36,737 nt of DNA. Origin: a virus. The notes under the pieces are model-generated. The model was given only the letters and a program-made list of their open reading frames with translations. It ran no database searches and was not told the origin of the DNA. The DNA is taken from positions 1-36,737 of IMG/VR virus record IMGVR_UViG_3300007640_000095; one strand, written 5' to 3'. Below are positions 2,249 through 35,704 of this stretch, one piece after another (the first letter of the stretch is position 1; each line of letters begins with the position of its first letter). The translations under genes and the position numbers were made by a program.

Positions 2249-2872
2249 ATGAGTAAAATTTTAATTAAACAATTACGGCCACATCGTCAAAAGGTTTTGA
2301 CAGAAGATGGCGAAGAAATGCGTTTGCAACAATGGGCAAACAAAAAAGCCGCTTCTGTTATGCGACAGGCTGGTGGGGATGCTACAGGTGAGCAGTTCAC
2401 ACAGGCTCGTGACGCTCTCATGCGTGAGGCTGTAGCCAACCCCGAAGAGCATGGCCTCAATTTCATGGGCGAGCGTGTGCCATTTGAGGGGCAAGAATTA
2501 GAAGAGCCGCTGAGTGAGCCGGATATGGAGGCTGAGAAGCCTCAGTTGCCGGAGTCTATTGAACAATTGCGGGGCGGAAATCTCTTTGACGAGCAGGGCA
2601 AACTTCGCCAAACACTCCCACCACAAGAGGATGAGGATGAAGAGTTTAATCCCGATGCTGAGGCTGAACACCTCCGCCGCATCATGACTTCTCGTGATGT
2701 TGCTATGCGTGATGCTTGGAGTGTGTTGAAGCAAGGGCCGTATGATTGGCAAGGTAGTGAATATGACACATATTGCCCAAGATGCCACAAAGGTATTTAT
2801 CGGGAAAATGAAGATGATTTGTTGCTTCTTCGTGAATTAGGCATGTGTGCCGATTGTGCAATGAAGGGTTGA
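2249..2872 (+). CDS. Acidic protein with C-terminal zinc ribbon and AWxxLK motif
   Basis: 207 residues. The N-terminus (1-40) is basic and helical (SKILIKQLRPHRQK...QQWANKKAASVMRQ). The middle (about 75-145) is strongly acidic and low-complexity (EDEDEEFNPDAEAEH), as in scaffold-like or disordered linkers. Residues 154-162 hold RDAWSVLKQ, a short peptide also seen in two proteins at 27364 and 27691. The C-terminus has a zinc ribbon: C176 and C179 (CPRC), C200 and C203 (CADC). The layout of basic end, acidic coil and metal knuckle could suit a scaffolding or internal head protein, but that is a guess. The start follows AAGAGGTTGTGA, a good SD overlapping the previous stop. Confidence 0.5.
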   Translation: MSKILIKQLRPHRQKVLTEDGEEMRLQQWANKKAASVMRQAGGDATGEQFTQARDALMREAVANPEEHGLNFMGERVPFEGQELEEPLSEPDMEAEKPQLPESIEQLRGGNLFDEQGKLRQTLPPQEDEDEEFNPDAEAEHLRRIMTSRDVAMRDAWSVLKQGPYDWQGSEYDTYCPRCHKGIYRENEDDLLLLRELGMCADCAMKG

Positions 2873-10666: not shown

Positions 10667-13600
10667 ATGGTTGCAATTGGTCGTAGTAGTCACGCTTTCT
10701 TCTTTGATGGCGTAAGCGATTCAGTTATTATACCTCAAGGTCGTTTTACAAAAACTGGTGTTGCTGATTCTAACGGTACAAAAGTAATGACTCAAACCCT
10801 GCAAGGGCAGGGAGATATTGTTTCAATTAATGGTAAAACAAATATAGATTTTGTAATTGAAACATGGGTTGTACCCGATTGTGGTGGTATAATTGCTCAT
10901 CGTGAAGGACAATTTACACTTGAGATAGGCACAGTAGATACACCCGGCCCTGCTGTATTTACAGTCTATGTTGAATCAAATGCTGGCCCATCACTGTTCC
11001 GTTTAGCATCAGCATACGACACTGGCTCACGATGGGATGGAATTGTTTATCCTCAACAAAACTACGGGGGTATTCATGATTCATATAACAGATACGACAC
11101 AGGTAATTATGGTGACGCTACAAATTTGAATTTTAAGAATCGGCCATTATATCATGTTGTGGCTGGAATTTCAAAGAGTCGTGTTTTCTTAGCCATCAAT
11201 GGAGAAATCGTATCACAACAAGATATACCACCCGAAACTCGCCTTGCACGCTCTACAGACCAAGTATATCTTGGTGGTAAAGGTGGACAATTTCGTGGGG
11301 CTGTAGAGGCTATTCACTTTTCAAATGAATTTGATGAGAATATGCTTGTTCCATCTATGGCTGTAAAAGGTAAGACAACATCGGCTTTATTCCGCTTTGA
11401 AGAACCTATTGATGTAATAGAAGAAACATACGAATTCACCGCCTACGGCTCAAGTGGTGGTACTACAATCACAATTCCAACCACTGATGCTCAAGCATTG
11501 ATTGCACGATTAACGGGTAAAGCCTACGATTCAAGTAACCCGACAATTGATTTTACTGCTTCACCATATAGCATGGGTAATTACAAGGTTGTTGATTACT
11601 ATACAAATCAAGGTACTCCAACAACTATTGCTGTAGCGCACACTCCGTATAATCTTCTTATCAATCCCGGTGCGATTAATCGTAACACACAGAAGCCTAA
11701 TCAATCCCCACCCGAAAGGGTGCGACTTCATAGCATCAATGGAAGCACTGGTGTCATGACTGTATCAAGTATTCATATTGACTTCATTAATGGTACAGGT
11801 GGCCTTCGTGGGGTGCTTCATTCACGAACTACTGATGTAGATAATTACTTTGTAGTGGTCGGTGCTGACTTACTTATTGATAACGGTACAGGAAAACCAT
11901 ACCAACCACCTCATTATGGTACACAAATTTTTGACAAAACAGGACAGATGGTGCTTGATGAAAGCGACATAAATAATCATGGTTTCGTATATTCAAGCCG
12001 TATGGCAACTACTACAGACGACCCTAACAATCCATTTGCTGTAGTTTGGCCTTCAAGCCTTGACACACTCTTCCAAGTTGGTCATAGTGGGCGACATGCT
12101 TATTCTCATATCATCGGGCATGAATACATGCGCCGCTATCCAAAACCTACTGAACTTACAATTGACCAGCAGGCTGATGGTTCAGCCGATATTGTACAGA
12201 TGGCATACGATTCTAATACTCGTAACATTGATGAAATGTTCACTATGAATTCATTAGTTGATTTTTACACTGAAACTTTGGAAGCACCGATTGCTCGGAT
12301 TGAAAACTCATCCAGCGTTACAGCAGTGGTTGATAATGGGCTACCAGCCAGTGTCAAGGAAATGATTGCTATTGGTGGTACGAATTTCAATTATGCGCCA
12401 TTTATGCTTAAAGGGCCAGTACCCGAAGTTGGTGATATTGATGAGAATAACCGACTGTATCATCTTATTCCCGAAACAGAAAGCCGTATTGCATTACTTC
12501 ATGTACCCGACCTTAAGACTTCACATAATCTTGCACCATTTGTTGAAATTTATTACAACGCCATTGATTTGACTGGTGCAAGTATGGGTGTCGCAACACC
12601 AATGTTGATGGTAGAAAAGACTGTACCAGCATGTTCGTATGACTTAGGAAGCGGTACACGAGTGCTTGATGTTATCAATGCTGATATTGCTAATTGTACA
12701 CTATACTCGCCCGGTGGTGTGATTTACCTTACAAATGCAATTAGCGGTTACGGTTCGTTAATGCAAGAGTCACATACACTCATTGGTGATAACACTGGTG
12801 GGCAAGAAAGTGAAACCGAGTTAGATTATAGCCGTACACCAGCCCTTTACACTCCTGTAGCCGATGTAAATGCCGAGCCAGCCTCACCACCTACCGCTAT
12901 AGCCCGTTCACATAATTCGGGCGTACATGATTCTGTATATCACCGAGTTGTTATTGAATCGCTATCATCCAGCCAGTCCGATACAATACTTGACGAAGGT
13001 GCAGGCAAATCAACCCGCCAGCCTACAACTGATAAGAGTGCTACAGGTGAATTTGATATTGGGCCAACTACACATTCTTCTCGTGTTTTTGAAACATTTA
13101 ACATCATTGACAATGTAATTATTACAGATGAAGCAGGCATTTTGGGCAAGATTTTCATTCAGCCTTCAAATAAATTAAGGAGTAATCAATTATCTTTGCT
13201 ACGATATACCGAAGCAGGAGATATACCAAATATTGCCAGCGTATTGTATTTGATGAGTCGTACTCGTATTCGTGGTATATCAAAGGATGAAAGCCCCGAA
13301 AGCAACATGAGTACAGTCATTATTACGGCTACGGGCATCGCAGATTCCTTTGTGAATGAGAATGTATCAGTTATTGGTAGTGGTTCGCCCGACTCACATA
13401 TAGTCAAAGAAATAGAGCCTAACTCACCTGTTGTTACAGTAACACTGGGAGGGGCTGGTCAAGGTGGTGTAAATACTAAACCAACATTTGACCCAAGCCC
13501 GTTAATGCGCCTTCCGGGTTCAACTCGCCGTAGTTGTGCTGTACAAGCAAGAAATGTTCACACGGCAACTACAGGTGCATTACCCTACAGCATGAGTGTA

Positions 13601-16600
13601 AGCCCATTAAACAATGGCTCGCCCGATATGAAATCATGGGGTACAATCTGTTTTCCAAAGAAAGGGCGAATATATCTTGGTGATGGCGCAAGTGCTGAGT
13701 ATGATGAAAAGACAGGTGCAGGATTTTATTTCTCACAAACAGCCACAGGTGTAGCAATTCAAACACGGAAATATTTAGACAGTGCAGGTACAGCCTACGA
13801 TACATTCCATGAGTGGTGTAATGCTACTGGTATTATCAATCAATCATCAACTGGCACATATCTTACTTCTATTTACATTTACAATGATGGAGATTTTGAT
13901 AATGATTCATTGGCGCAAGATGGAAGTACGCTCAATGACCGTTTGTTCCAATCTCTTGATACTGTAACACATGATTATCAACTTGGCACTCAATTTGCAA
14001 GCACTCGTGCAATGGTGGAAATCCCTGTATTCCCTCAGCAGTTTTTTGACCATACTGAACTTGGTATTTTTCCCGGCCCGGATAACAGTATGAAACTGCA
14101 TATTGATGCAACATATACAGCACATACATGGAATCCAACACCAGTAGGTCGTCGTGCTGATGATATTGATGCGGCTGATAAGTCTAAAAATTCAGCCTAT
14201 ACCTATACAATTAACAACAAAGAACATGTAAGTTCAGCAACAATTACCAAGTTTGAAGTTGTTGGTGATTATTTCCATGTTTATGTTTCACATCCAAAAA
14301 TGTTCCCCGATGCTTCTACAACAGGTACATTTGGTGGTATTGAAGATATACGCCGTGTACGCCGTGTATTTGTCAATACTGATGATTGGGCATTTTACAT
14401 CAACAATCCAGCAGTAGATGGATATTTGAATATTCCACACAATAGTGCGGGTGGGTTTCACGAAGGTATATCGGATAAATTTGCTTTTAGCGCAGTGGTT
14501 GGCTCTAAGATATATCTTATAGATTCATTTAGAAATGAAACCCTTCTTCCTCTTTCTTCGGATAGTGAACTTCCATCTTCGGATTACGAAGGCCGTTCAC
14601 CGTATTATTATGACATTGGAAGCATGATGACACAAGGTGGTAATCTTGACTACGGATTGCGTCAATATGTTTCAGCCGTTGAGTTCAAGGCTGGCCCATT
14701 GGCTAATCCTCATGCCCCTCGCACTATAACAAAGCGTGCAAAATCAAAGATTGTACAAGCAGATGATATAATTGGTGGTTTAGTTAATCTTATTTTAGAA
14801 GATTCAACTCTATTTCCCGATGCGCCATTTACACGAGATACAAGTAATTCACCAGTAAATGAACAAGGAGATGTGATGATTATTGGTGAAATATTACTTG
14901 ATACACCAATTGAAGTTCATTACTATGGAAAGTTAGATTCAAACGGTGGGAAAAATTCAATTCAAATTCAAATACCAAGTAATATAACATACAATGTAGA
15001 TGAATTTCTTAACACTGATTTTATTTTAAAGCGTGCAGGGCATGTTCTAAATGGACTTGATAACCCCGAAGATATGAAAACTCAAGAACTTCAAACGGCT
15101 GTTTTCTTCGCTACGGGAGATGAAGAGTGGACATATGTAAATACTGATAGTGCAGGCACAACTACTACAATTGAAATTACGAATGCTAACAAACGATTTG
15201 CACATGCAAATACAATAGGATTGAATATTCGTAAAGGTGACAAATTATTTCGTGATGATGGAACTGGAACTGATATTGAATACATTGGTGAAGTATTAAA
15301 GGTTGAATCAAATGAAATTACAGGTGGAAATACAGAAGTAACACTTACCGCAAATAATCTTGTGACTATTGATGCTTCGGATAAAGTAGGTATTGGGAGT
15401 GCAAGTATTGTACAAGATGACCATGATGCTGTATTAAATCGTAGTTGGCTTTACCCATATGCACAAGGTGGTTTGCGAAACGGTGACACCGTATGGATGA
15501 ATATGACAATGAATAATCCACATGCTATTGAAGGGTTATTCTCAAAAAGTCGTGGAGTGTTTAATGACGCATTAGTATGGAAAGGATTCAATGGTGGTCA
15601 AGGCCAATTAGCCGAGCGACCAAGAGATTCAATTCCACTTGAAAATTTCTTGATTGGAAATTCATGTCTTGAAACAGCACAAAATTTTGCACAACATGTC
15701 AATAAAACCATTGAAATGAATTACGAATCAATGGGTCTTGATGCAACGCAAGCACCTACAATAGCGTACATTGACCCATATCTTTCAACAGATGGTCACG
15801 CTCGTGTCTTGTTATATGATGTAGCACATGACCGTGAATTTATTGCATTCCATGATTTACACATGCAAGTTCAATCCAGTGCGGCAACACCTTCAATTGG
15901 TTACACACGCAACATACCATATGACGGTGGCGACCTTAAACTTGACAAATACCTTATCAGTACAAACGGTGGTGCGCCACATTACTTTACTACGCAAATA
16001 GATGTAGCAAATGGTTTCCCAACAGAAAATCGTTACATGCGCTCAACTCAACAATCTAAATTTATTGAAAGTGCGTATGCACATAATATTCCAAATAATA
16101 TTTCTCAAGATTTACTTGGTAGCACACTTATTGATACACAAATAAAATACACACTTGAAAATCCATTTACTCTTGGCAATAACCCTACAAGGCGTGGTGC
16201 TGGTCACGGACACTTTGTACACACTGGATTGTATCATGAAGGCACATCTAATACACATACAGTTGGTGACAACACCCTTCCACGAGTTCAACAAGCCATA
16301 TCATCAGTATATTACGCCAATCAAGCACATAATTTAATTCGTAAAGAAAAAGAGGGCGACAATTTAATTTCAGCATTAAAGGAATACAGGGCAGACCAAG
16401 ACCCTAATTTGTACAGTTTGAAAGATTCAAGCACGCTTTTTGATACACCCGATGGTACTCGTGTCATTTCAGCATATCTTTGTTTAAAGGGTAAAAGAAA
16501 TATCACTCTTGACTTAGCCGACCATGAAGAAAGCCGACTTCAACATTTGAAACATTGGAGTGAAATGGATTTCGTGCGTCGTATGTCTATTGACTTAGGT

Positions 16601-19600
16601 GAAGTTGGTGTTAAGGAAGGAGTAACAGATATTGAAGCGGCGGCACGAGAAATTGTCCGACTTATCAATCAAGGTGGCGCACCAAATGGTCGTACACATG
16701 CTCGCAGACCATCACAGCAATATCCGGGTGAAAGTGAAAGACTTGACCTTACACGAATTGGTGTACGCCAAGATATTGTAAATGAAAACAAAGACCCTGC
16801 ATCAGCACATATCAATGCTGATTTTGCCGCTACAGGTTCAACCTATGACCCTGCACCGTTTTGGTATGGTGACATTGCATTTGATTCTCATGATAGAGGC
16901 TCACATATGGGATATGTACGAGCGCATATTGGGCGAGTTGTTGAGGACATTAATGGAAATGAAGGGTTCTCAATTATTATCCATTCAACAATACCCGGTG
17001 CTTCGGGTCGTAATTTCTGCGTTTGGCTTGATAATAGTAAAGGTCAATCTTCATATCAACCTCAATTTTTAATTGGTCACGGTGGCCGATTCCGAAACTT
17101 TTGGGCGCAACCCGATGAAATCATGGGTGAAAATATGCACCCTGCACCAATGCCGCTTAACAAAGATGGGCGACCATTTGCACCCGTTACCACTTTACGA
17201 GAATACATCGTACAAGAAGAAACAAGTGAACAATTTACCAGTAATCATGATATTGCACCAAGAACTGATGATACAACAAATCCAATTGGGCGAAACATTT
17301 CAGCCCATCTTGGCGGTATTTCACATAACAGTGTCAATGAAGAATCGTTTGAAACTCAAAGCCCTTCTACTGCTCTTGTTAAGGGATTAAGAGCAGGTAA
17401 GGAGGCTGTAGCACGAATTAATTTTGGTGGGCTTGTTGAAGCAGGTGTACCCGGTTTTTCACCAATTGCTGGAAAATATGGGCTTGGTCGTATTGGTGAT
17501 ATAGAATTTAACAAGCGATATGGTGAAACTACTCTATACGGTGCTACTTCACCTACAGCCAATAATTCATATTCAACTCATATTAATCCTACTGAATTAG
17601 CACAAGATAAAATTGGTGATGCAACATTATACGGATTGCGTTTCACCGACCATCGTGGTGCAGGGTATGGAATACGCTACATATATCGTGAAATGGATGC
17701 ACCGTATGCAAACGAATTAACAACTATCCCATCTACAATTGATGAAGAAATTTGTATTTATTTTGATGACCGTGATGCAGGACAAGGTGGATTTACGATT
17801 GGGGCGCACATGATTGGTGCTGGTGATGCTACAGGTCGTCTTACACCTCAAACTGATATGACTGAGGCGTTATGGCGTGGTAATCAATGGAGAGGAATGT
17901 ATGCACCAAGTATAGGAGTTGATTCTCAAATTAAATGGGATAGTTCAAATGATACGATAACAGTACAACTTGAAAGTCCATTTGATACAGCCACTACATC
18001 TTTTGATAATGTTGCTGATATACTTGGTTATCTTGGTTTTCCAAAAGAAAACGGTGTTATACAAATTACCGACCCTCTATATGATGCAGGTTTAACAGTA
18101 AAAGGTTCACTTGGAAATACTGTATCTTATGAAAGCCGAACACAAAATAGTGCAACTGGCACACATGTATTTTATGGAGTGAGAGGTGCATCATTTGCTA
18201 TTTCCCATTATCTTAGCAGTTTTGGGGCGGCGGCTACGGCGGCTACTTCTCAAACATTACCTGCCACATCTAATAATATAATTCGTGGATTAATTTCATC
18301 ATGCCTTAACATGACGACTTTAATTACTGATGAATTATTAGCCACTGTTACTGCCGCCGCTATCAATTTAGATAATCCAAATGTGATTGAGGGTGTATCG
18401 TTTAATTGTCGTGATATGTATGCGCCCGATGGCCGAAAATATTCGGAATGGGGAATATCGGAAGATGCAATTAAAATCCGAGCGCATAATCCTCAGCGTG
18501 GCGCACGACCACTTTCAAAAATGTTTAGTGCTAAGGTATATCGTGATTTAGGTATCGCCGCACCTCATTTAGAATATGGTGAATATCAAAAATTGAGTAA
18601 GTCTGCCAGTGGAAATTGGACAGTATCAAACGGAGGCGTTACTGTAAATAAACCGTATAGTGATGAGGATATTGATGATAATCACAAGCATCTTGGATGT
18701 GGATATATCCCAAATACTGTTTTACAAATTCGTACAAAGGCTCGTGGTTATCACGCAAATACACCAACTCCAATACTTGTTGATTCATACAATGACCCAG
18801 TACCAACAAAACGCTGGCGAAATAATTTGAAGGGTATTCGTTTTACAGGAAAGAGTGGCGACCACATTACACCAGCCCTTGATAATACGGCTGTAATCTA
18901 TACTAAATGGGATGGTACAAACAGTATTTTTGAATTAGCCAATTCTGTTGCGGCACTATTAATCCCTGCTGGTGTAGAAAATGATACTTTATCAGTAAGT
19001 GGTGCAAATAGAGATAGGTTACTTTCTTTTGGAGATAAAAAGACTATATTTCACGGTACACTCAAACAAGCATTAGGCACACCAAAGCAAAAGCCAGCAG
19101 TAGCATTAAAACGATTACAAATTTTTATTCAAGAAGCAAATGAGGCTTGGCGTGGTGAATATCAAGCAGGTTCAACATTAACCAATAATGGATTATTAAT
19201 GATTCATAATGATGGTGAATTTAGCGGTATTCGTTTATATGGTAGTATTGAAAGCGAGCCAATTACTTACTTTAAGGGTGGACATGACAGTAATGACCAT
19301 AGCGTACCGTTATACTTTGGTGGTGGATTTAGTGGTGTCGTACTGGATGTAAATGATGGGTCAAAGAATGATTACTCTTCATTTTACACGCATCCGTATT
19401 CAACAGGCCCAACTGGTACGGCTGGTATTCAAAATGCAAATGAAATCAGCACAGCATATGCTATGGTAGATTGTAATGCATTACTTGCTTTCTTCCCTGC
19501 CACACCATTCCTTAACCAACATCGGGGTACAATTAATTCACCAGCATTTAATCAAGACAGCCTGTTGTCTCCCGATTTAGATTTAAACACACTTACTGAT

Positions 19601-22600
19601 TACTCAAGCAATCCAGCGCATGTATCAGCACGATATACGGCTGGAATAGTACGACAACGACCAATTCCACTTGTTATGCGTATGCCGCATCAAACTGCAC
19701 GCTACACTGACCATAAAACAAGTACACCTTACTTTACAACTTATTTGATATACGGGCCGGGTCAATCATTCCCATTCAATGAAACGGCTACTGGAACGCT
19801 TGGTGAAACTGAACCCCATCCCGGTTATGTTGTAACAACAGGAAATAGTTGGAGTAAAGTTCCATCGGGTGAATTTTTACCAAATGAAATTAAAAATCCC
19901 GATGGAGAATATGGCCCTCCAAGCACTACATATCAATCTCGTACTCAACGCTTCCATTGGCGAACAACATTGAATTGGTCGCCACCTCAAGGTATTCCAA
20001 ACATCGGTGACGATTCGGGTACAACATACGGTATGGCACAACGCCCCGAACATGGTTATCATTACGGCGACCATTTTGGAACAATCCTTACGATTAACAC
20101 AAACAATGAAGGTGAATTTGCTAAAGCACATCCATATCGTCATTGTGCTGTATCATACTACGGTATAGCATCAAGTGCTGATATGATGTTTCACATGGAT
20201 GGAGGTTATCTTCCCGGTGGTAACTGGCTTGATAATCAAATAGCATTCAATCCCAAAATGGAAAAAAGCAACTATACAGTTGTTAAGCATAACAATGATG
20301 TTCAGCCTACTGCTTTCCGTGTTTCCGGCCCTCTTGCTACATCTATCTTAGATGGTTTGTTAGGTGAAACAGCCGATGACTTTGACCGTGAAATCATCGC
20401 AATTGATGCTACACGGTGTCAAAATGGTGAAGAGTTAGCGACTATCATCGGCCAAGCCATTAATGAAAATCCCGGTAAAGGCGCACTCAAGGCAATGGGT
20501 GGTACATTCATGCCAAGTATGGGTAATGCAATGCGTCAAGACCGATATGGATGGGTTGAATTATCATTCAGTTCATATTCCTACGGTGGTTCACTTTCAG
20601 ATTTAGCAACTTCACCTACATCACCTGCATATGTTGAAGCCATACTTGGAAGCGGTAACAAGCAAACTCAGTTAGAACAATTACCTGCAAGTGGTTGGAT
20701 TCGTACCGATAATGGCCGTACACCAAGCGGTAGTGGTGGTGCATTTGCACCATATCATTCTCGTGAAGTGTATGAAAGTGGAGGTACATGGTATGTGCGA
20801 TTTTGGCTTGCACCAAATAAAATTAGTGGAATGCCTGTAGTTGAAGATGCTCAAACATGGGCTGACAAATGTGGTGGTTCTACTCTTACAGGGCCATCAC
20901 TTTCACCCGGTGCAACTAAAGTATTTGTTTGGAGTAAGGCTGGTGTACACTATTACAACAACTACAATGATTCAACACGCAACCATATGACTCATGTACA
21001 CTTTAGTGGTGTCGTTGATGCAATTGACCGTACACGCCCTGTAGGTGCTGTAGGATGGGCTGGTGAGCGTTATTCATATCTTAACTCACTCAAAGTAGGT
21101 AGTGAAGGATATGGTGCTGGACTTGGTGCTTGGCATCCAATGTTGGGCTTTTCACCATATGGTTCAGCCTCAAGTTTCATGAGTACATTTAGTCATTTAC
21201 CTCATTTTACTCCAATGAAAAACAGCCCCGAATCCATGTCACCATTGACTGGTCGTTCTAATTCCGATACCATATTGACAACTCCGTACACTTGGACTTA
21301 CGATACATACACAGCCGCCGCTTATGAAACAGCAGAAGATTCCGATTACCAAAGAGTTCCATTACACCTATCGGATGCTGATGCAGTACCACGCTCTCTT
21401 CATCATCCTCAAGGCGTATTCGCTCGTGGATTCCTTGTTATTTCATATGAGAGTGAAATGCCATTAGTAGCAAAGTATGACCGTGATGGTATTACAGCAA
21501 TGGGTGATTGGTTGGCTGTCGTATCAAAGACTGGTGATGCAGTAGCCGCAAGCACAGCAATTACATTTGCTGGTACAGCGCAATGGGATGAGCGCATACA
21601 CAGTGTAGATAGATTTGTTGCACCTGCTCATGGCGGGCCAAACATTGAGGCTTTGATTGCTTCACTTGATTTACCAACAGATGATATTCCATCAGCCGCT
21701 TTTAATTTCCACGCACCAATCATTGCTGATTCTTTATTGTTTAATGCAGAACCATGTTTTGCCAAAACTGGTGATTTATTCTTTGACTTAGATGAAAGTC
21801 CGGGCAGTTTCTTTTTAGAAGATACAACTGATATTGAGCGGAATTTAATTACTGATTATGTAACTACAAGTACGGATGCTGAATTAGACCGTTATGGTGA
21901 CGATGCAACATATTGGCTTGGTGATACTAACGCTTTCAAATTGCGACAAAATTCACCAGCAAAGAATTTCTCAGTTGAGCATATTGTTTGGAAGCGTATG
22001 GATGGTGGTAATCTTTCACTCCCTGCTGTAAATGCTCGTGGTCTTGGTGCTGTACCTTTCATTACACGAGTAAGCGGTGGAACAGCATATACGATGGGAG
22101 AAAAATTGTACGGTATCAACCGATTTTCATTTGAAACAACCAACAGTGCTATGTTCCCAATTATGCAAGCACAAGAATTAGCACACCCACAAATTGCGGC
22201 TCGCCATCCCGATGAACTACGAAATGTATTAGAAATTCCAAATGAAGAAATGCAGTTTGAAGAAATGCAAGTGCAAGATGATACAGGCCAAATTCATATC
22301 ATTGAGGGTGGCTCACCATTCGGCACAATCATTCGCACTTTCAATTCGGTATCGGACAGAAGTGCCGAAGGATTAGCACCAGCCATCGCTGGTAGTGGTG
22401 TAGAGCCTAACCTCAAAGTACGCTTACCCGACCCCGATACTATTCCCGGCAATCTCATTATTCGTAGCGGATTTGACCGATTACAAGCCTACCAAAATGA
22501 AACAATGGGTACAGGCGGTATGATGCGGTCAATTTCAAGTAACAGCATCAGCCATTTATTTACTGATGAAACAAAAGGGCCACGCCTTAATGGAACATTT

Positions 22601-25600
22601 AGCGACCACAATTGGGAACATATTAGTCAAAATGCTACAGGCGAAGCATTCCCCGATTCAACTTACAAGGGTTGGAAGTCTGCTACTGGTAACGCACCAT
22701 TAGAAACATCTTACGAGTTACATGACCGTACTCTCTTCTTCCACATTACCAAGAATGGCAATACACACAGTCACCGATACCCTACATATTACACTCATGC
22801 TAACGGTATTACAAACAATGACCTCACGGCTGTATCATACAGTGGTACAACATTAACAGTGAGTGGTACAGTTGATGCATCGTTATACGACGAATCTATT
22901 CGTGATGGGCGTAAGTTCTTGCGTTTGTATAACCCAACAACCGACAGGGGTGGTGTAGCCTCATTTACTGGTATTAGTGGTTCAACATTCACTGGTTGTG
23001 TAGGAGATGCCGACTTTGCTGATTTAATTACTGGTGATATTTCATCATTCAAAGTTGTACCATCATACTACATCCCTGCTGGTAGTACACGATTCTTTGC
23101 CGCACGCAGATTGCGTGACCATGCCGAAGTAAGTGGGAACAGCCCCGATATGGCTCATACAATGTATTTCACCAATTTAGTATTAGCAGATACGCTTGGA
23201 CATGACATATACTCAATTCCTAAAATGAGTCCACTTGCTTTGCCTCGTATGGGTCATCATTTCGTCAATCCAACAATGGCTATGATGCCCGGTCATTTTG
23301 CTCATCCAGCATATCAAGGAATATACAACAAGCATCGTGCAATCCGCTCGGCTACTGTAAAGGCGCATGAAACATCACTCATGGAAAGCCAAAACTTGGA
23401 TGACCTCATGAGTGATATTTCAACTACATTAACTGATGAATTGTTTGGATATGATACAATTCACACATTTGGTGCATTAACCGCTACACCAAGTGGCCCA
23501 AGTGATATACACGGTGGCGCATTCTCCCTTATGTTTGAATCAAAGATTCGCAGTGATGGTTATGGTGTACTTGCATCGGAAGGTGAGGCTGGTGTTATCA
23601 ATGCCGCAGGTGGACATACGATTGTTCTTGAAGCCGCCGCAAATTATACGCTACGACATCACTTCCCCGACCCTGCCGAAGTTGGTGCATATCAAATCAT
23701 CATTCAACCAAACATTCACAAATCACAATTAATGGGTTTCCATCAAAACGGTGGAGATGAATTAACCAGCCAACAAGTTGCATTGGTCGTAGGTATTCGT
23801 GAGGCTGATTCAGCAACAGGTGGTCTTGGGCTTGTATTAGCAGAAGCAATATCGGCTGATGTGCGTGGCTGTGAAGTGTTTATCAATGAACTCATCCTTG
23901 ACCATGACCCCGATTTCGGTAGCCAATTTACTAACATTCCACCACTTCTATTGTATAACGCATTAGGCGTACAGGGTACAGAAAGTCCAGCCTTTACACG
24001 ACGCTCATTACCATATCATCCACAAATGTTTGCACTTGCTTCACCCGGTATGACTACGAATATACCATATTGGAGTATCGTACATAAGACAGGGCCGGAT
24101 GACTCAAACGCTGTAGGATTCCGCCATCTTAATCATCATCGTCTTGACAATTACTACGAGTTCTTGCGAGCCAGTGCTGGAAGTATCGCTTGTCAAATTA
24201 CACTTGCAGGTTATCCAAGCCTATACCCCGACCTGTATCATGAGGTGCTTGAAAACATTAGCCTCAACCCTGTTTGTACAGTTGTAAGTTGGACTTCAAC
24301 CACTGTTACTGTTGATGATGCTCGTGGATTCCCACAAGTTCCTTACTATGGAAACAAATTAGAATACACAGATAGTGATGGAGTACGACGCACGCATACC
24401 TACACCGAGCGTAGTGGATATGATGCTACGAACATGAATCAGCCAAAACAGTTCACTTTTGTTGCCAATGCAAACTTTACTGGTAATTTAACTGCTGGAA
24501 CGAAATTGCGCCTCACCCGCCCTTACGACTTCCGCCCTGCTGGTGATATTTTCAAAGATTCTTTGACGAGTATTGTAACCCGCACTTTGCCACAGACTTT
24601 GCAAGGTAGCCGTGATACGAATAGTTTGCATATGGCTGATGCATTCCTTTGTCTATGGCATCCAAATCTTGGTCGCCCTTACACTTACTATTCCGATTCT
24701 TCCCGTACATGGCTCAGTCCAGCCATTGACCAAAAACCACTCAACAGTATGCCCGAACACTTTGAAACTATACATTATCATGATGCAACATATTATGCAA
24801 GTCTTGGGCCATTTGCATTCCATCGTAAAACACCTGCGCCACCATATAAATTCAAAAATGTTTCAAGTACGGATGATAGGAAGGTATTAGCCGTTAATAC
24901 AGGAACAAAACAAATTACCACAACAGCACCAAGTGCAAGTTTAAGTAGTGGCCTCAAAATAATAATTGAAGGTATAGCATATACAGTAAATACTGATTTA
25001 TCTTCAATTATTACAGTTAATGAAGATATTACTGCTACGATTCCAATTGGTGCTACAGTATGGACTCATGGTACAGGTAGTATGGGAACTGCTAACGCAT
25101 TAGAATCTCATGGAAATCCATATGTCCTTACTAACTTTGAATCTCAAGGAGGTCAATGGGATGCGGCTGATGCAACTACGAAATCAATGCTCAACCACTT
25201 TTGGCCTTCGGGTTCTCGTGGAGGGCCATTGGTGAGCCGTCTTGACGGGTATGGGTATGTTTCAGCCGCATGGGATTATCCACGAGAATACACTTTTGAT
25301 GCCCCTGTTTGGATTGACCAAGATGATGATGGTTCATATGTAGTTTCAAGCGGTATTACAAAAACCTCCTACGATGCTATTAGCAATCCGACCCGCACTC
25401 GGCCATTTGGTTATCGTATTGGATTACGCCAACCTTACAATAAACCACAATGGGCTTTGTATGGAATGCGTGCATACCGTGAATCTGCTATTGTTGGTTC
25501 AAATACATCTGTTGGTTATCCACACGGCCCACTTGTACAAGATGAAACTCAAACATGGACTTACGCTGGTGGTAATGGGTTAAGTAATGCTACATATCCA

Positions 25601-27367
25601 AATACCCAAATTGGTATCATGGAACGCCAAACAAACTTTAGCGGTATGCTTGGTATGGATAAACCCGAATGGCAAGTCCGATACAGCGACGGAATGCGTG
25701 TCGCTCGCCCATTCGGTTGTCCTGTTCGTACTTTACGCAATGGCAATACGGTACTACGAGATTGGTGGGGCGACAGTGAAGGTAAGAGCATCGCAAAGAT
25801 TGACGAGGCTGTAGGGTATTACTTAGTTGATTGGTGGGGCAATACTCGTGGTGAGGATGTGCGTCGTCACCCTGTTCGTGGATTCGGTATTCGCCCTGCG
25901 TGGGATGCGGCTGATGTATATGAATATCTCAACACACCATACGAGCGCATATACAACGGCGGTACACCAATTGTAAATATGAAAGGTTTAGTTGATGCAT
26001 CGGGCAATCTAAGTGTGAGTGCTGGAATTACTGTACCACGCTTTGGTGGCCGCTCAAACAGCATCAATAACAACAACGCTAACATCTTGGTTGATGTATA
26101 TTTCCCAACCAATGCTCATCGTGTAGGTGATGATGGTCATGGTCGTGGATTGCGCTATCCAACGGCTTTCAATGAAGATGTTCTTACCGCACTTGATGAG
26201 CCATATCATACAACAGGTGTCGTGCTATCACATCATACGGCTGAACCTGTATTGAACGATGGATATATCCGAGCAAGAAATGATGTATTACAGCCCGATG
26301 AAGTGCCTCGTGGTATTAGCGCACGCCTTGATATTGCTGAGAATGGATTGCTCAAGCCCGAAGCAGTTGTAAGTGACCGTGTTGAAACAGTTGTAGGAGA
26401 TTCACCACACAAGGATGCAGTAAGTCGCAGTAGTCCTCGTATTGGTCTTGATACTGAAAACATAGAGGGTGTTGATGAAAACCTCATCGCAATTAACACA
26501 GAAGCACACAGCCTACACACAGACAGAAATGTAGGACAGCGTGTAATTTTACAAGGCGGATATACAGCAGGTTCGCAAACACTTGGTAATTATGACCTCA
26601 CCAGTTTGTCCTTTGCTGGACAACCTCAAGGTGGTGCAATGAAGTTATCCCATACTTCAAACTTCAATCCTCTCGGTGGTACATATCTTGCTGAAACTCG
26701 CAACTTTGTTTCACCATTAAATGATTATACATGGGGTGGCTTTGGAAGCGGTGTGATTACATCAAACCCATACGAAACGAATGTATTTGATGCATCAGCC
26801 CAACAAACTAACCTTACTGATAAGCGCATTACTTACATGATGCGACCAGTCCGTTTATTGGACAAAAATCATATTGAGATTTTTAGGCCAAACAATCAAC
26901 TTCATTCATCATCACCACAGTATGGTAGCAATTATTTCTCCGCTACTGGTGGTGGAAAATACGGTATGTACTTGTATGAAGTAAGCAATGGGCGTGCAGG
27001 TGATGGATATTATATTCGTAGCACCAATCCCGATACTAATCCACCATACGCTCCGTTGTATGTCATGGATATTTCAACCAGTGATAGCGCACCCGAAAGT
27101 ACAGGGCCAAAAATTATCGGTACAGAAGCAACTACATTTGATTCATCATTATTAGACAATGAAGTTACTCGTGTAGTTATGAGTGAAAATACACTTGAAC
27201 ATTACAGGTCGGATGCACCAAGAAGGCGTACTCATCAAGAAGGTGAAAACAAACAAGAGCGCATGGATTTCAATGTACAGCCCCGCTTTTCGCAATCTCT
27301 CCATCCAAAAGGCCATAAAGGAGATGTAACCTACAATTCAAATGACCATAGTGGTGATGCCTCATGA
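10667..27367 (+). CDS. Giant tail-associated protein (5,566 residues)
   Basis: A single uninterrupted frame of 16.7 kb coding about 600 kDa. Residues about 1-245 form a LamG/concanavalin-like beta sandwich: FFFDGVSDSVIIP, then DFVIETWVVPD, RPLYHVVAGISKSRVFLAINGEIV, and VYLGGKGGQFRGAVEAIHFS are typical strands of that fold, which binds glycans. The rest is beta-rich, Gly/Asn/Thr/Tyr/His-rich, without membrane helices or signal peptide; residues near 4107 (STFTGCV) and 4547 (VTVDDARGFP) carry a short module also seen in the adaptor protein. No HExxH or other protease motif was found. The gene lies between distal-tail and hub-like genes and overlaps the next start (ATGA), so it is probably a virion tail-tip or long fibre protein recognising host surface. 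No family recognised for the bulk. Confidence 0.75.
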   Translation: MVAIGRSSHAFFFDGVSDSVIIPQGRFTKTGVADSNGTKVMTQTLQGQGDIVSINGKTNIDFVIETWVVPDCGGIIAHREGQFTLEIGTVDTPGPAVFTVYVESNAGPSLFRLASAYDTGSRWDGIVYPQQNYGGIHDSYNRYDTGNYGDATNLNFKNRPLYHVVAGISKSRVFLAINGEIVSQQDIPPETRLARSTDQVYLGGKGGQFRGAVEAIHFSNEFDENMLVPSMAVKGKTTSALFRFEEPIDVIEETYEFTAYGSSGGTTITIPTTDAQALIARLTGKAYDSSNPTIDFTASPYSMGNYKVVDYYTNQGTPTTIAVAHTPYNLLINPGAINRNTQKPNQSPPERVRLHSINGSTGVMTVSSIHIDFINGTGGLRGVLHSRTTDVDNYFVVVGADLLIDNGTGKPYQPPHYGTQIFDKTGQMVLDESDINNHGFVYSSRMATTTDDPNNPFAVVWPSSLDTLFQVGHSGRHAYSHIIGHEYMRRYPKPTELTIDQQADGSADIVQMAYDSNTRNIDEMFTMNSLVDFYTETLEAPIARIENSSSVTAVVDNGLPASVKEMIAIGGTNFNYAPFMLKGPVPEVGDIDENNRLYHLIPETESRIALLHVPDLKTSHNLAPFVEIYYNAIDLTGASMGVATPMLMVEKTVPACSYDLGSGTRVLDVINADIANCTLYSPGGVIYLTNAISGYGSLMQESHTLIGDNTGGQESETELDYSRTPALYTPVADVNAEPASPPTAIARSHNSGVHDSVYHRVVIESLSSSQSDTILDEGAGKSTRQPTTDKSATGEFDIGPTTHSSRVFETFNIIDNVIITDEAGILGKIFIQPSNKLRSNQLSLLRYTEAGDIPNIASVLYLMSRTRIRGISKDESPESNMSTVIITATGIADSFVNENVSVIGSGSPDSHIVKEIEPNSPVVTVTLGGAGQGGVNTKPTFDPSPLMRLPGSTRRSCAVQARNVHTATTGALPYSMSVSPLNNGSPDMKSWGTICFPKKGRIYLGDGASAEYDEKTGAGFYFSQTATGVAIQTRKYLDSAGTAYDTFHEWCNATGIINQSSTGTYLTSIYIYNDGDFDNDSLAQDGSTLNDRLFQSLDTVTHDYQLGTQFASTRAMVEIPVFPQQFFDHTELGIFPGPDNSMKLHIDATYTAHTWNPTPVGRRADDIDAADKSKNSAYTYTINNKEHVSSATITKFEVVGDYFHVYVSHPKMFPDASTTGTFGGIEDIRRVRRVFVNTDDWAFYINNPAVDGYLNIPHNSAGGFHEGISDKFAFSAVVGSKIYLIDSFRNETLLPLSSDSELPSSDYEGRSPYYYDIGSMMTQGGNLDYGLRQYVSAVEFKAGPLANPHAPRTITKRAKSKIVQADDIIGGLVNLILEDSTLFPDAPFTRDTSNSPVNEQGDVMIIGEILLDTPIEVHYYGKLDSNGGKNSIQIQIPSNITYNVDEFLNTDFILKRAGHVLNGLDNPEDMKTQELQTAVFFATGDEEWTYVNTDSAGTTTTIEITNANKRFAHANTIGLNIRKGDKLFRDDGTGTDIEYIGEVLKVESNEITGGNTEVTLTANNLVTIDASDKVGIGSASIVQDDHDAVLNRSWLYPYAQGGLRNGDTVWMNMTMNNPHAIEGLFSKSRGVFNDALVWKGFNGGQGQLAERPRDSIPLENFLIGNSCLETAQNFAQHVNKTIEMNYESMGLDATQAPTIAYIDPYLSTDGHARVLLYDVAHDREFIAFHDLHMQVQSSAATPSIGYTRNIPYDGGDLKLDKYLISTNGGAPHYFTTQIDVANGFPTENRYMRSTQQSKFIESAYAHNIPNNISQDLLGSTLIDTQIKYTLENPFTLGNNPTRRGAGHGHFVHTGLYHEGTSNTHTVGDNTLPRVQQAISSVYYANQAHNLIRKEKEGDNLISALKEYRADQDPNLYSLKDSSTLFDTPDGTRVISAYLCLKGKRNITLDLADHEESRLQHLKHWSEMDFVRRMSIDLGEVGVKEGVTDIEAAAREIVRLINQGGAPNGRTHARRPSQQYPGESERLDLTRIGVRQDIVNENKDPASAHINADFAATGSTYDPAPFWYGDIAFDSHDRGSHMGYVRAHIGRVVEDINGNEGFSIIIHSTIPGASGRNFCVWLDNSKGQSSYQPQFLIGHGGRFRNFWAQPDEIMGENMHPAPMPLNKDGRPFAPVTTLREYIVQEETSEQFTSNHDIAPRTDDTTNPIGRNISAHLGGISHNSVNEESFETQSPSTALVKGLRAGKEAVARINFGGLVEAGVPGFSPIAGKYGLGRIGDIEFNKRYGETTLYGATSPTANNSYSTHINPTELAQDKIGDATLYGLRFTDHRGAGYGIRYIYREMDAPYANELTTIPSTIDEEICIYFDDRDAGQGGFTIGAHMIGAGDATGRLTPQTDMTEALWRGNQWRGMYAPSIGVDSQIKWDSSNDTITVQLESPFDTATTSFDNVADILGYLGFPKENGVIQITDPLYDAGLTVKGSLGNTVSYESRTQNSATGTHVFYGVRGASFAISHYLSSFGAAATAATSQTLPATSNNIIRGLISSCLNMTTLITDELLATVTAAAINLDNPNVIEGVSFNCRDMYAPDGRKYSEWGISEDAIKIRAHNPQRGARPLSKMFSAKVYRDLGIAAPHLEYGEYQKLSKSASGNWTVSNGGVTVNKPYSDEDIDDNHKHLGCGYIPNTVLQIRTKARGYHANTPTPILVDSYNDPVPTKRWRNNLKGIRFTGKSGDHITPALDNTAVIYTKWDGTNSIFELANSVAALLIPAGVENDTLSVSGANRDRLLSFGDKKTIFHGTLKQALGTPKQKPAVALKRLQIFIQEANEAWRGEYQAGSTLTNNGLLMIHNDGEFSGIRLYGSIESEPITYFKGGHDSNDHSVPLYFGGGFSGVVLDVNDGSKNDYSSFYTHPYSTGPTGTAGIQNANEISTAYAMVDCNALLAFFPATPFLNQHRGTINSPAFNQDSLLSPDLDLNTLTDYSSNPAHVSARYTAGIVRQRPIPLVMRMPHQTARYTDHKTSTPYFTTYLIYGPGQSFPFNETATGTLGETEPHPGYVVTTGNSWSKVPSGEFLPNEIKNPDGEYGPPSTTYQSRTQRFHWRTTLNWSPPQGIPNIGDDSGTTYGMAQRPEHGYHYGDHFGTILTINTNNEGEFAKAHPYRHCAVSYYGIASSADMMFHMDGGYLPGGNWLDNQIAFNPKMEKSNYTVVKHNNDVQPTAFRVSGPLATSILDGLLGETADDFDREIIAIDATRCQNGEELATIIGQAINENPGKGALKAMGGTFMPSMGNAMRQDRYGWVELSFSSYSYGGSLSDLATSPTSPAYVEAILGSGNKQTQLEQLPASGWIRTDNGRTPSGSGGAFAPYHSREVYESGGTWYVRFWLAPNKISGMPVVEDAQTWADKCGGSTLTGPSLSPGATKVFVWSKAGVHYYNNYNDSTRNHMTHVHFSGVVDAIDRTRPVGAVGWAGERYSYLNSLKVGSEGYGAGLGAWHPMLGFSPYGSASSFMSTFSHLPHFTPMKNSPESMSPLTGRSNSDTILTTPYTWTYDTYTAAAYETAEDSDYQRVPLHLSDADAVPRSLHHPQGVFARGFLVISYESEMPLVAKYDRDGITAMGDWLAVVSKTGDAVAASTAITFAGTAQWDERIHSVDRFVAPAHGGPNIEALIASLDLPTDDIPSAAFNFHAPIIADSLLFNAEPCFAKTGDLFFDLDESPGSFFLEDTTDIERNLITDYVTTSTDAELDRYGDDATYWLGDTNAFKLRQNSPAKNFSVEHIVWKRMDGGNLSLPAVNARGLGAVPFITRVSGGTAYTMGEKLYGINRFSFETTNSAMFPIMQAQELAHPQIAARHPDELRNVLEIPNEEMQFEEMQVQDDTGQIHIIEGGSPFGTIIRTFNSVSDRSAEGLAPAIAGSGVEPNLKVRLPDPDTIPGNLIIRSGFDRLQAYQNETMGTGGMMRSISSNSISHLFTDETKGPRLNGTFSDHNWEHISQNATGEAFPDSTYKGWKSATGNAPLETSYELHDRTLFFHITKNGNTHSHRYPTYYTHANGITNNDLTAVSYSGTTLTVSGTVDASLYDESIRDGRKFLRLYNPTTDRGGVASFTGISGSTFTGCVGDADFADLITGDISSFKVVPSYYIPAGSTRFFAARRLRDHAEVSGNSPDMAHTMYFTNLVLADTLGHDIYSIPKMSPLALPRMGHHFVNPTMAMMPGHFAHPAYQGIYNKHRAIRSATVKAHETSLMESQNLDDLMSDISTTLTDELFGYDTIHTFGALTATPSGPSDIHGGAFSLMFESKIRSDGYGVLASEGEAGVINAAGGHTIVLEAAANYTLRHHFPDPAEVGAYQIIIQPNIHKSQLMGFHQNGGDELTSQQVALVVGIREADSATGGLGLVLAEAISADVRGCEVFINELILDHDPDFGSQFTNIPPLLLYNALGVQGTESPAFTRRSLPYHPQMFALASPGMTTNIPYWSIVHKTGPDDSNAVGFRHLNHHRLDNYYEFLRASAGSIACQITLAGYPSLYPDLYHEVLENISLNPVCTVVSWTSTTVTVDDARGFPQVPYYGNKLEYTDSDGVRRTHTYTERSGYDATNMNQPKQFTFVANANFTGNLTAGTKLRLTRPYDFRPAGDIFKDSLTSIVTRTLPQTLQGSRDTNSLHMADAFLCLWHPNLGRPYTYYSDSSRTWLSPAIDQKPLNSMPEHFETIHYHDATYYASLGPFAFHRKTPAPPYKFKNVSSTDDRKVLAVNTGTKQITTTAPSASLSSGLKIIIEGIAYTVNTDLSSIITVNEDITATIPIGATVWTHGTGSMGTANALESHGNPYVLTNFESQGGQWDAADATTKSMLNHFWPSGSRGGPLVSRLDGYGYVSAAWDYPREYTFDAPVWIDQDDDGSYVVSSGITKTSYDAISNPTRTRPFGYRIGLRQPYNKPQWALYGMRAYRESAIVGSNTSVGYPHGPLVQDETQTWTYAGGNGLSNATYPNTQIGIMERQTNFSGMLGMDKPEWQVRYSDGMRVARPFGCPVRTLRNGNTVLRDWWGDSEGKSIAKIDEAVGYYLVDWWGNTRGEDVRRHPVRGFGIRPAWDAADVYEYLNTPYERIYNGGTPIVNMKGLVDASGNLSVSAGITVPRFGGRSNSINNNNANILVDVYFPTNAHRVGDDGHGRGLRYPTAFNEDVLTALDEPYHTTGVVLSHHTAEPVLNDGYIRARNDVLQPDEVPRGISARLDIAENGLLKPEAVVSDRVETVVGDSPHKDAVSRSSPRIGLDTENIEGVDENLIAINTEAHSLHTDRNVGQRVILQGGYTAGSQTLGNYDLTSLSFAGQPQGGAMKLSHTSNFNPLGGTYLAETRNFVSPLNDYTWGGFGSGVITSNPYETNVFDASAQQTNLTDKRITYMMRPVRLLDKNHIEIFRPNNQLHSSSPQYGSNYFSATGGGKYGMYLYEVSNGRAGDGYYIRSTNPDTNPPYAPLYVMDISTSDSAPESTGPKIIGTEATTFDSSLLDNEVTRVVMSENTLEHYRSDAPRRRTHQEGENKQERMDFNVQPRFSQSLHPKGHKGDVTYNSNDHSGDAS

Positions 27368-32622: not shown

Positions 32623-33240
32623 TCACTCTTCTTCGTATTCTTCGGGCTGGTAGATAAGTGGTTTAGCCAACTTAAGTTCTTGCCCATCAATAACAAATTG
32701 AGTATCAATATAACGCAACAAAGTATGAATACTCCACATAAACCATTCCATTGAATGGTCATTTCTAAATACCCGATTATGATGATAAGTCATATATTCT
32801 CGGATAGAGAAAAAAGTATCTTCTAATTCTTGTGAATTAAGCGCACTTGCCATAAATGAAATCTTTTTGAATGCGTTTTCCATGTCCACCATATCTTCAT
32901 CGTTTTCGGATATAGGTTCTGTATAGTATTCTTCGTGCTGGCGGATAATCTCACGAGCGTAACTAAGTCCACTATAAACAAGATAATTGCAATCAAATTG
33001 GACATGCTGTAGGTAGCGAGAAAGGGCTGAAAGAAAATCAATTTCTACATCGGTAAATCCTTCTTTTCCTGTTTGCGAGCCAGTTTCAAAGTGAGCGAGC
33101 CACTCTTCACCCTCTCCACTTTCTTGCTCAAACCCAGTATAGGGCATGTTCCTTGCTTTGTTTATTTCTTCTTGTATAATCGGCAAAAAAATCATTCTCG
33201 CCTCGCTCACTTCCTTTTTTCTCATGGCATCTCTCTCCAT
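32623..33240 (-). CDS. Orphan acidic helical protein
   Basis: 205 residues from ATG 33240; an in-frame ATG at 33225 after GGAGAGAG is a credible alternative giving 200 residues. The protein is helical, acidic and rich in Tyr, Phe and Glu (GFTDVEIDFLSALSRYLQHVQ; YLVYSGLSYAREIIRQHEEY split; SMEWFMWSIHTLLRYIDTQF) with one cysteine and no metal motif. It ends EEYEEE, like the neighbour at 33288. I do not recognise the family. It is the last gene of the minus-strand operon, after a 47-nt gap, and its stop is 4 nt from the fibre stop. The start region can fold into a hairpin. Confidence 0.6.
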   Translation of the reverse strand: MERDAMRKKEVSEARMIFLPIIQEEINKARNMPYTGFEQESGEGEEWLAHFETGSQTGKEGFTDVEIDFLSALSRYLQHVQFDCNYLVYSGLSYAREIIRQHEEYYTEPISENDEDMVDMENAFKKISFMASALNSQELEDTFFSIREYMTYHHNRVFRNDHSMEWFMWSIHTLLRYIDTQFVIDGQELKLAKPLIYQPEEYEEE

Positions 33241-33287: not shown

Positions 33288-33500
33288 TTACTCTTCTTCG
33301 TACATAGAAGGATGTTGGTAAATTGTTTTCAAACGATACGGTTTGAGTTTGCGTATAGATGGGTCAAGCCAAAAGAAACCGCATTGCCTACAGTGTAGTA
33401 AGTACACACGCTCGTTATCATAATCAACAAAACGGCCACTTACTCGTCGTGGTATTTCATTGCAACCACATACTTTGCATTTTTGTCTAAGTCTATCCAT
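33288..33500 (-). CDS. 70-residue zinc-ribbon protein
   Basis: The start is ATG 33500, overlapping the stop of the 30-residue gene (ATGGATAG); a longer version from TTG 33542 would only read through that gene in another frame. A zinc ribbon is clear: C8 and C11 (CKVC, with C13 next), then C37 and C40 (CRQC), separated by strands with basic residues (PRRVSGRF) and NERVYLLH. The C-terminus is basic (IRKLKPYRLK) then ends MYEEE. Such single-ribbon proteins in archaea and their viruses often bind DNA, RNA or the transcription machinery; I cannot tell which. Coupling to the microprotein upstream suggests a joint role. Confidence 0.62.
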   Translation of the reverse strand: MDRLRQKCKVCGCNEIPRRVSGRFVDYDNERVYLLHCRQCGFFWLDPSIRKLKPYRLKTIYQHPSMYEEE

Positions 33501-33585
33501 TAGTCGGTTTGTTCCAGCACGCCCCACAAAAATCACCATCAATTAAATAATCACATTCTTTTTTACAGATAGAACAAATCTGCAT
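33493..33585 (-). CDS. 30-residue zinc-ribbon microprotein
   Basis: ATG at 33585, stop TAG at 33493-33495. The translation begins MQICSICKKECDYLIDG and goes on with FCGACW, giving CxxC (C4, C7) and CxxC (C20, C23) 12 residues apart, a complete minimal zinc knuckle. The SD is AGGTGAT (33589-33595), which overlaps the TAG of the chaperonin gene, the same stop-in-SD design used elsewhere in the window. It overlaps the next gene by 8 nt. Correct cysteine pairs, SD and coupling together argue that this very short frame is real. Confidence 0.62.
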   Translation of the reverse strand: MQICSICKKECDYLIDGDFCGACWNKPTNG

Positions 33586-33593
33586 TAAATCAC

Positions 33594-35096
33594 CTATTGT
33601 ACTGGTCGTCGTGCTACAATGTCATCAATGCGTAAAATGGCATTGGTGACTTCACCAGCACTAAGTACGGCTTGACGCACTAACTCAACAGGCTCAATGA
33701 CACCATCAGCCAGCAAGTCCTTGACACCACCATCGGTTACATTTGGGCCAACTGTAAGATTACCATGAAGAATCTCGTGTCGCATAGCAAGGATAGTATC
33801 AAGTGGGTCATGTCCTGCATTTTCAGCAATAGTTGCGGGTACAATTTCCAATGCATCTGCAAACGCCTCAATTGCCATCTGCGCTCTACCGCCTATTTGA
33901 GCGGCGTGCTGGCGCAAGTGCGAGGCCATTCGCACATAAGCATTCCCTCCACCTACAACATATTGGTTGGTTTGCATGACAAGTGATACAACACCAAGTG
34001 CATCATCAAACCCACGCTCAACTTCTTCAAGCGTATGAGATGTAGCACCACGCAACACCAATGTTGCTTCATTGCTTTCATTCTCACTACTAACAAACAA
34101 ATACCAAACATCATTCTTTCTTTCACGAGTAATTAAAACTTGGCTGGCCGATTCAATTTCTTCGGGATATTGAACAATTGGAATGTTAGCCATACGGCTC
34201 ATGGCACGAAGTGATGATTCGGGTACACGACGAACAACCATAATGTTACTCTTCTTGAGATGCGAACAAACAATATCACTCACTCCATCCCGTACAAATA
34301 CAACACCACCGTTAGGCATCGCCGCTACGACATGTTTTGCACTCGTAATCAAATCAGCCTTGCTTGCACCTTTGTATGTTTGATATGAATTAACATCTAA
34401 TTGAACTTGAATATTATCCTCACTCTTTTCAGTTTCAAGACCCGAATTAATGAGAAGCATGTTTGTGTATGTATCATCACCTTCAAGCACATAGTCCTTG
34501 TTCACAATCACACCATTGTATAGGTATGAATCTTCAAGTGAACCGCCGGGAAATGATACTACCTTAACACTCTCAGCATCGCCAGCCTTCTCAACGGCTG
34601 ATACACATAATTCTGCAACTGCATCAAGCGCACTCTCAAGTGTCTTTCCTGTAATAGCCGTCTTTGCGACTTTAATCAAAGACTCTCGTTCATCACTGCT
34701 TTGTGCAATATCCGATACAAGATACTTAACAGCCATCTGTGCGGCTTCATGATAACCACGACAAATGACATTGGGGTGCAATCCCTTTTCAAACAACATT
34801 TCACTGTTGCCAAGTAATTGACCAGCCAACACGACTGTACTTGTTGTACCGTCATAACACAACGATTCTTGAGTACGAGCAACTTCTGCAATCATCTTAC
34901 CGCCGGGATGTGATACATCTAATTCACGAAGAATTGTAGCACCATCGTTTGTAACAATAACATTGCCACCACCATCTACCATCATCTTATCCATACCCAT
35001 TGGGCCAAGCGTCGTCTTGACTGTTTCAGCAACCGTCTTTGCCGCCCTAATGTTATGTATTTGCGCCTTACCATTTACTCCTTCTTTTTCTGCCAT
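33594..35096 (-). CDS. Group II chaperonin (thermosome) subunit
   Basis: 500 residues from ATG 35096, which has GGTGA five bases upstream; an ATG at 35108 would add four residues without an SD. Motifs are unmistakable: [10 protein letters not shown] (30-39), NDGATIL (50-56), DGTT (82-85), a later DDALGVV and [17 protein letters not shown], and [26 protein letters not shown] near the end. The apical segment with the helical lid is present. It forms an ATP-driven double-ring cage that folds proteins in the cytosol. It is about 40 residues shorter than cellular thermosomes. The usual Gly before DGTT is Tyr81. A viral copy may fold the large virion proteins coded opposite; that is inference. It overlaps nothing upstream except through the SD. 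Confidence 0.95.
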
Positions 35097-35101
35097 ATGT
35101 T

Positions 35102-35704
35102 TCACCATTCAACTTTTATTTCCATTATTTCGCCAGTTTCAAGGCTACGAGAATTGACATACCCATTACTTTTACCAAATTGATATAAGTCATATGTCAA
35201 TTTTGCATCGTCTAAACAATACTTCGCAACCTCATCATACTTACCTGCTCTCCAAGCAATAGGGGCATCGGCACTATTCATTAATTTGTTGCTATCAAAA
35301 GTATGTTTGACAAGCATTCCGAGTGAAGTGTCCACTCGGCCAATCGGTAGTGCCGCACTACTCACTAAGTTCCGTGTATCAATAATGGAATCGGATTTCA
35401 TTAAATCGTTGGCTGTCCAACAATCAAGTGCATCACGCAATACAGGTAGGTCAAATGCCTTAATGTTATGACCAATGATTTGACCGCCCTTTTCAACATG
35501 TTCTGCTAAGTCATCACCTAATGTACGAGGGTGTAATGCTTTGATTGTATTATCTATACTAAGTGATTCATTACAATACACTGTACCGTTATCCCCATCC
35601 CATGTTGCCACAACTGTAGGCTCAAACATATGGGTATTTTTCCAACCACCTATTTCATGAGAAAAATTTCCTGTTTCAATATCTAAAGATAAATAATCGC
35701 TCAC
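35102..35704 (-). CDS. DEDDy-type 3'-5' exonuclease (DnaQ/PolB-exo fold)
   Basis: 200 residues, GTG start with AGGTGAT five bases upstream. All three exonuclease motifs are visible: Exo I D8-I-E10, Exo [14 protein letters not shown] with N80 and D85, and Exo III Y162-C-L-D-D166 (YxxxD, the DEDDy type). It is a single domain, without a polymerase palm or other part. It probably acts as a stand-alone proofreading or processing exonuclease with two metal ions, or in recombination. It sits directly between a helicase-like gene and the chaperonin gene, in one operon, which suggests a replication role. Confidence 0.82.

Follow-up and report, generated by a model that had tools for sequence, protein, structure and literature searches.

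A short frame between the chaperonin and ribbon genes

We analyse a stretch of viral DNA of 36,737 nucleotides (IMG/VR record IMGVR_UViG_3300007640_000095, positions 1 to 36,737; 'the window' below) and concentrate on the junction between a chaperonin gene and a gene for a small basic protein, where a 30-codon open frame is found. The genes and signals of this region, all on the minus strand and given in reading order, are as follows:

35102..35704, minus: DNA-polymerase-type 3'-5' exonuclease-like gene, 200 aa, upstream of the chaperonin (phrog_17, E 3.9e-10)
33594..35108, minus: group II chaperonin (thermosome type), 504 aa (Cpn60_TCP1, E 4.8e-122)
33589..33595, minus: Shine-Dalgarno-like AGGTGAT, 3 bases 5' of the ATG of the tiny gene
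33493..33585, minus: tiny gene, 30 aa, C-x2-C-x12-C-x2-C, acidic; kept in relatives
33288..33527, minus: ribbon gene in its longer alternative reading, from a GTG preceded by GGTGAT
33288..33500, minus: basic zinc-ribbon protein, 70 aa from its ATG, with four cysteines
32623..33240, minus: 205-aa gene downstream of the ribbon gene on the same strand, no family

The tiny gene translates to MQICSICKKECDYLIDGDFCGACWNKPTNG, followed by a stop. An earlier note on this DNA had described an ATG, a Shine-Dalgarno sequence and a complete frame here, and all of these (ATG, AGGTGAT and the 30 codons) are present in the window. Translation likewise bears out the two CxxC pairs, C4/C7 (CSIC) and C20/C23 (CGAC), and shows an additional, non-invariant cysteine, C11. 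The stop codon TAG (33493-33495) meets the ATG of the next gene (33498-33500) as the note reported, the two together reading ATGGATAG; at the other end, AGGTGAT overlaps the chaperonin stop TAG (33594-33596) by two bases. The duplex of AGGTGAT with a typical archaeal 16S tail has an energy of -8.7 kcal/mol (5th percentile of random sites, -9.0), and we give such energies little weight because most starts fall inside the spread of the background (-3.8 +/- 2.9). Across relatives the tiny protein is 30-39 aa long, and its gene begins at or adjoining the chaperonin stop and overlaps the start of the ribbon gene.

Comparison with relatives identifies the frame as a gene

A frame this short could plausibly escape gene finders, and it can also arise by accident. 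The window holds two short CxxC...CxxC open frames, compared with 0.68 +/- 0.72 in first-order Markov shuffles, so that a chance frame of no biological meaning has in its favour that about 0.7 such frames are expected in a window of like composition. By itself the pattern in the window is not clearly distinct from chance, and it is the relatives that decide. Our scans of IMG/VR return 80 loci for the chaperonin query and 29 for the tiny-family query. In all 29 gene-bearing contigs the tiny gene sits directly between the thermosome-type chaperonin gene and the ribbon gene, and the four cysteines are kept in 16 of 16 distinct aligned tiny proteins (the invariant columns are C4, C7, G17, C20 and C23, while C11 varies). 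The expectation that the same frame, with its cysteines, would recur behind the chaperonin in related viruses is thus borne out.

The substitutions in these relatives point to constraint on the protein. In 18 distinct 23-codon cores, pN/pS is 0.33 in the coding frame compared with 0.90 and 1.44 in the other two frames, and variable columns number 12, 10 and 19 at codon positions 1, 2 and 3; both are pooled figures in which related sequences are counted repeatedly. For five chosen pairs of canonical cores (the selection test did not include diverged ones), a protein free of constraint would be expected to show 56.3 amino-acid differences; we count 32, and none of 20,000 simulations gives a value as low. 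The gaps between chaperonin stop and ribbon ATG in tiny-bearing haplotypes are 75, 78, 81, 84, 90 and 93 bases, all multiples of three, in a set where one locus (L047) carries an extra gene. Two further loci (L193 and L194) have a tiny coding frame identical to that of the window, so the unusual junction of the window is not an assembly slip. We also looked for the case that would speak against a gene, a broken frame or lost cysteines beside intact flanking genes, and among the relatives examined there is none: the frame is either intact or cleanly absent. Because of the constant position (29/29), the invariant cysteines, the pN/pS ratio and the pairwise simulation, chance can be excluded as an explanation, and we consider it scarcely credible that the frame is meaningless. 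On this comparative evidence the 30-codon frame at 33493-33585 is almost certainly a genuine gene.

The gene is optional and occupies a variable slot

The number of viruses that do without the tiny gene is large. Among 95 distinct chaperonin-ribbon junctions, 27 carry it, 60 are empty and 8 hold other small frames, where junction classes were assigned from gap length and by eye; the 27 comprise 21 canonical and 6 diverged genes (L047, L048, L050, L053, L255 and L257 type), the latter assigned by position and cysteine pattern. Roughly one in four of the related viruses in the survey thus has the tiny gene, and at junctions that lack it the ribbon start mostly lies no more than a few bases from the chaperonin stop. 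The gene is an optional add-on and not a required half of a pair. The earlier note had suggested that the tiny and ribbon proteins might form a metal-dependent two-part regulator; as an obligatory pair this is not supported, since 60 of the 95 junctions have the ribbon gene by itself.

Presence and absence alternate among close relatives: a locus with the tiny gene (L009) and one without (L018) have a near-identical ribbon gene. On a quick chaperonin tree (58 rows) there are at least four changes of state, from which we conclude that the gene was repeatedly gained or lost; the tree does not separate gains from losses. When 29 longer records are searched with a profile, no copy turns up outside the slot. 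The pattern scan for the family used a narrower alignment (A2, since A1 was too diverse), with which strongly diverged copies elsewhere could be missed.

The other occupants of the slot, open frames from one or a few lineages (selection was computed for the tiny gene alone), include an 81-aa frame with two CxxC pairs (L060/L268), a 57-aa cysteine-rich frame (L281), a 54-aa CxxC/CxxC frame (L295) and a 73-aa frame with few cysteines (L247/L251), and in L047 a 90-aa membrane-like frame accompanies a diverged tiny gene. In L225, L226 and L246 the slot holds short frames, some 38-42 residues long, that look membrane-like.

The ribbon gene and its start

The chaperonin gene is followed by the ribbon gene at all 80 loci from the chaperonin scan and at 104 of 106 from the ribbon scan, many of the latter being on the same contigs as the former. 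The conserved unit is therefore the chaperonin together with the basic ribbon protein: in these viruses a thermosome gene is accompanied by one constant neighbour and by a slot for small genes whose content varies. In the two exceptions of the 106 (L297 and L298) a TFIIB gene takes the place of the ribbon gene, whose homologue is encoded on the other strand and converges on it. The replacement is a full TFIIB-like gene directly behind the chaperonin (L297:3238-4158, minus, and L298:3222-4202, minus; PF00382, E 9.8e-36 and 7e-39). At two more loci (L301 and L302, records G028 and G027) a frame of 127 residues matches the TFIIB repeat below threshold (E about 1e-4) and might encode a degenerate TFB-like factor.

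In relatives the ribbon protein starts four residues earlier, with MG[KR]L, a start that is lost in the window. In canonical relatives the GAGG of the ribbon gene sits inside the CE[AE]C codons of the tiny gene. The window and two near-identical contigs have lost both the usual ATGGG start and the upstream GAGG (33498-33527, minus), and in these three contigs the tiny frame ends right at the later ribbon ATG. They may have switched from an internal Shine-Dalgarno sequence to stop-start coupling; the N-terminus of the window's ribbon protein could lie at the later ATG or at the GTG at 33527. A fusion of the tiny and ribbon frames by frameshift was set aside, given that the ribbon gene has its own conserved ATG and upstream GAGG in most tiny-bearing relatives; no fused form is seen among the relatives.

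Predicted folds and comparison with known proteins

What kind of protein might 30 residues with four cysteines make? The tiny protein fits a single domain of fewer than 70 aa (30-39 aa in this family) with four invariant cysteines as putative metal ligands. The AlphaFold2 model (16 rows; mean pLDDT 78, pTM 0.38) consists of short strands with a hairpin, and residues 21-24 form a helix that starts at the second CxxC. The earlier note had taken the protein for a zinc ribbon, which would have its two knuckles on beta hairpins, a three-stranded sheet and no helix at the second pair; with low confidence, given the modest quality of the model, we describe the predicted fold as treble-clef-like rather than a ribbon. 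The layout, CxxC, hairpin and then CxxC at the start of a helix, is like that of treble-clef and LIM zinc knuckles, but the sole Foldseek match, the LIM protein CRP1, is not significant (E 6.9), and no family model agrees: searches of the family against Pfam, PHROGs and NCBIfam give no significant match, and the sequence has no match in the PDB. AlphaFold2 is unable to tell whether four such cysteines truly bind metal (PMC11241148). Judging from the sequence, we consider the tiny protein a candidate that probably binds metal.

The 70-residue neighbour, on the other hand, does model as a three-stranded ribbon. The top Foldseek matches of the neighbour are RNA polymerase I structures (A12.2), RPB9 and TFIIS, none of them significant (best E 0.19, prob 0.97), and there are weak profile matches to DUF7479, TIGR04165 and archaeal TFS (best 4.8e-4, below the cut-off). 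Its C-x2-C-x25-C-x2-C spacing and its modelled ribbon are like those of TFIIS/TFS, RPB9 and TFS4; it differs from them in being a single short domain that lacks both the N-terminal ribbon and the Asp-Glu tip, and the catalytic tip ([RQ]x[AG]DE-like) is absent from all seven ribbon members inspected. The two neighbours are opposite in charge, the tiny proteins being acidic (pI 4.1-5.0) and the ribbon proteins basic (pI 9.1-10.3).

The closest counterparts of the tiny protein in general plan are the archaeal C(P)XCG micro-proteins (Haloferax HVO_2753 and HVO_0758, Halobacterium Brz), which are also stand-alone, shorter than 70 aa and built around two cysteine pairs (PMC2253796, PMC11241148). However, the tiny protein is shorter than nearly all of them (the shortest Haloferax C(P)XCG proteins are not below 30 aa), is viral and has no sequence match to them. 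It also lacks the motif itself: the pairs are CSIC and CGAC in the window and C-x-[FL]-C and CEAC in relatives, with no G following. As the motif is missing, we do not file the tiny protein with the C(P)XCG group. In 50,697 phage records the chaperonin, ribbon and tiny queries find no match, and in the magrovirus literature, of which our coverage was partial, we found no mention of such a tiny gene, so an earlier annotation is possible. The tiny family is apparently undescribed so far, while archaeal single-domain zinc-finger micro-proteins are already well known; it would add a viral family close to the smallest size at which zinc fingers stand alone.

Proposed function and alternatives

We tentatively favour a reading in which the tiny protein is an acidic metal-binding microprotein that acts on its neighbour. 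The four cysteines would hold one zinc (or a similar metal) in a minimal treble-clef-like knuckle, and translation of the protein would be coupled to that of the basic, RPB9/TFIIS-like ribbon protein. It would bind a protein, most likely the ribbon protein, and by this binding tune the action of the ribbon on host RNA polymerase. In favour of such a partnership are the fixed placement next to the ribbon gene, with overlap at its start, and the opposite charges. The transcription machinery is suggested as the target because the ribbon resembles RNA-polymerase-associated ribbons and because TFIIB stands behind the chaperonin in a distant lineage. There is precedent for each half: the TFIIS-like ribbon protein TFS4 inhibits RNA polymerase in archaea (PMC5715097), and Brz is a small zinc-finger protein that regulates its neighbour gene (PMC2253796). 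Several points weigh against the proposal. The ribbon must work alone at the 60 of 95 junctions where it has no tiny gene beside it, all fold and family matches are weak, acidity is common in small viral proteins, and AlphaFold2, as noted above, does not decide whether metal is bound.

Almost as likely as this favoured reading is that the gap between chaperonin and ribbon genes is a tolerated place of insertion within an operon that is expressed. The tiny protein would then be one of several short, exchangeable proteins directed at host targets, for counter-defence or host takeover, and would need neither the chaperonin nor the ribbon for its action. The patchy presence, with its four or more changes on the chaperonin tree, the clean presence or absence between close relatives and the unrelated small frames in the same slot are all as this would have it. 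A free cassette would, however, be expected at other places too, and the tiny gene is found only here (29/29), with no second copy in the 29 longer records. We think it unlikely that the protein instead has the viral thermosome or a thermosome client as its binding partner and so adjusts the folding of virion proteins: the gene does lie directly behind the chaperonin gene in every case and would be co-translated with it, but it is missing from the majority of viruses that have this chaperonin, and our searches found no known thermosome cofactor of this kind. Less probable again is that translation of the tiny frame serves to deliver ribosomes to the ribbon start, the peptide itself having little function. 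The overlap with the ribbon start would suit such a role, as would the arrangement in the window, where the usual start and GAGG are gone and the tiny stop directly adjoins the ribbon ATG; the amino-acid-level constraint and the invariant cysteines disfavour it, as does the fact that 60 of the 95 junctions manage without the gene.

The favoured partnership with the ribbon could also be cast more broadly. It is conceivable, if doubtful, that the junction is a dedicated slot in which a fixed basic ribbon protein is modified by an exchangeable cysteine-rich microprotein, predicted to bind metal. If so, lineages would swap regulators of host transcription (or of the chaperonin) while the rest of the operon stays unchanged. 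Either way, the conserved ribbon gene and the variable slot beside it offer a concrete target for asking what purpose a virus-borne chaperonin operon serves.

Virus and host

The window combines a group II chaperonin with a tailed-virus gene set, and a polymerase gene is absent. The same combination is known from viruses of the abundant marine group II archaea (Poseidoniales), namely clade 1 of Nishimura et al. 2017 (PMC5332604). One clade of these viruses is reported to carry a thermosome-type chaperonin in each of its 18 genomes; in three other clades the chaperonin is of the GroEL type (PMC5332604). The gene clusters of the window lie on opposite strands, as in magroviruses. From the thermosome-type chaperonin, the tailed-virus genes and the two opposed clusters we conclude that this is likely a virus of Poseidoniales, its clade membership being judged from chaperonin type and layout alone. 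In cellular genomes the ribbon query finds no match and the chaperonin query only distant ones (38% at best), with no Poseidoniales genome among them.

Two side observations concern the structural cluster. Two adjacent genes, 1943-2242 (plus) and 2249-2872 (plus), carry CVHC/CGAC and CPRC/CADC and have no convincing family, making another pair of successive four-cysteine proteins in the window. In the same cluster a single open frame of 5566 residues (10667-27367, plus) takes up nearly half of the window.
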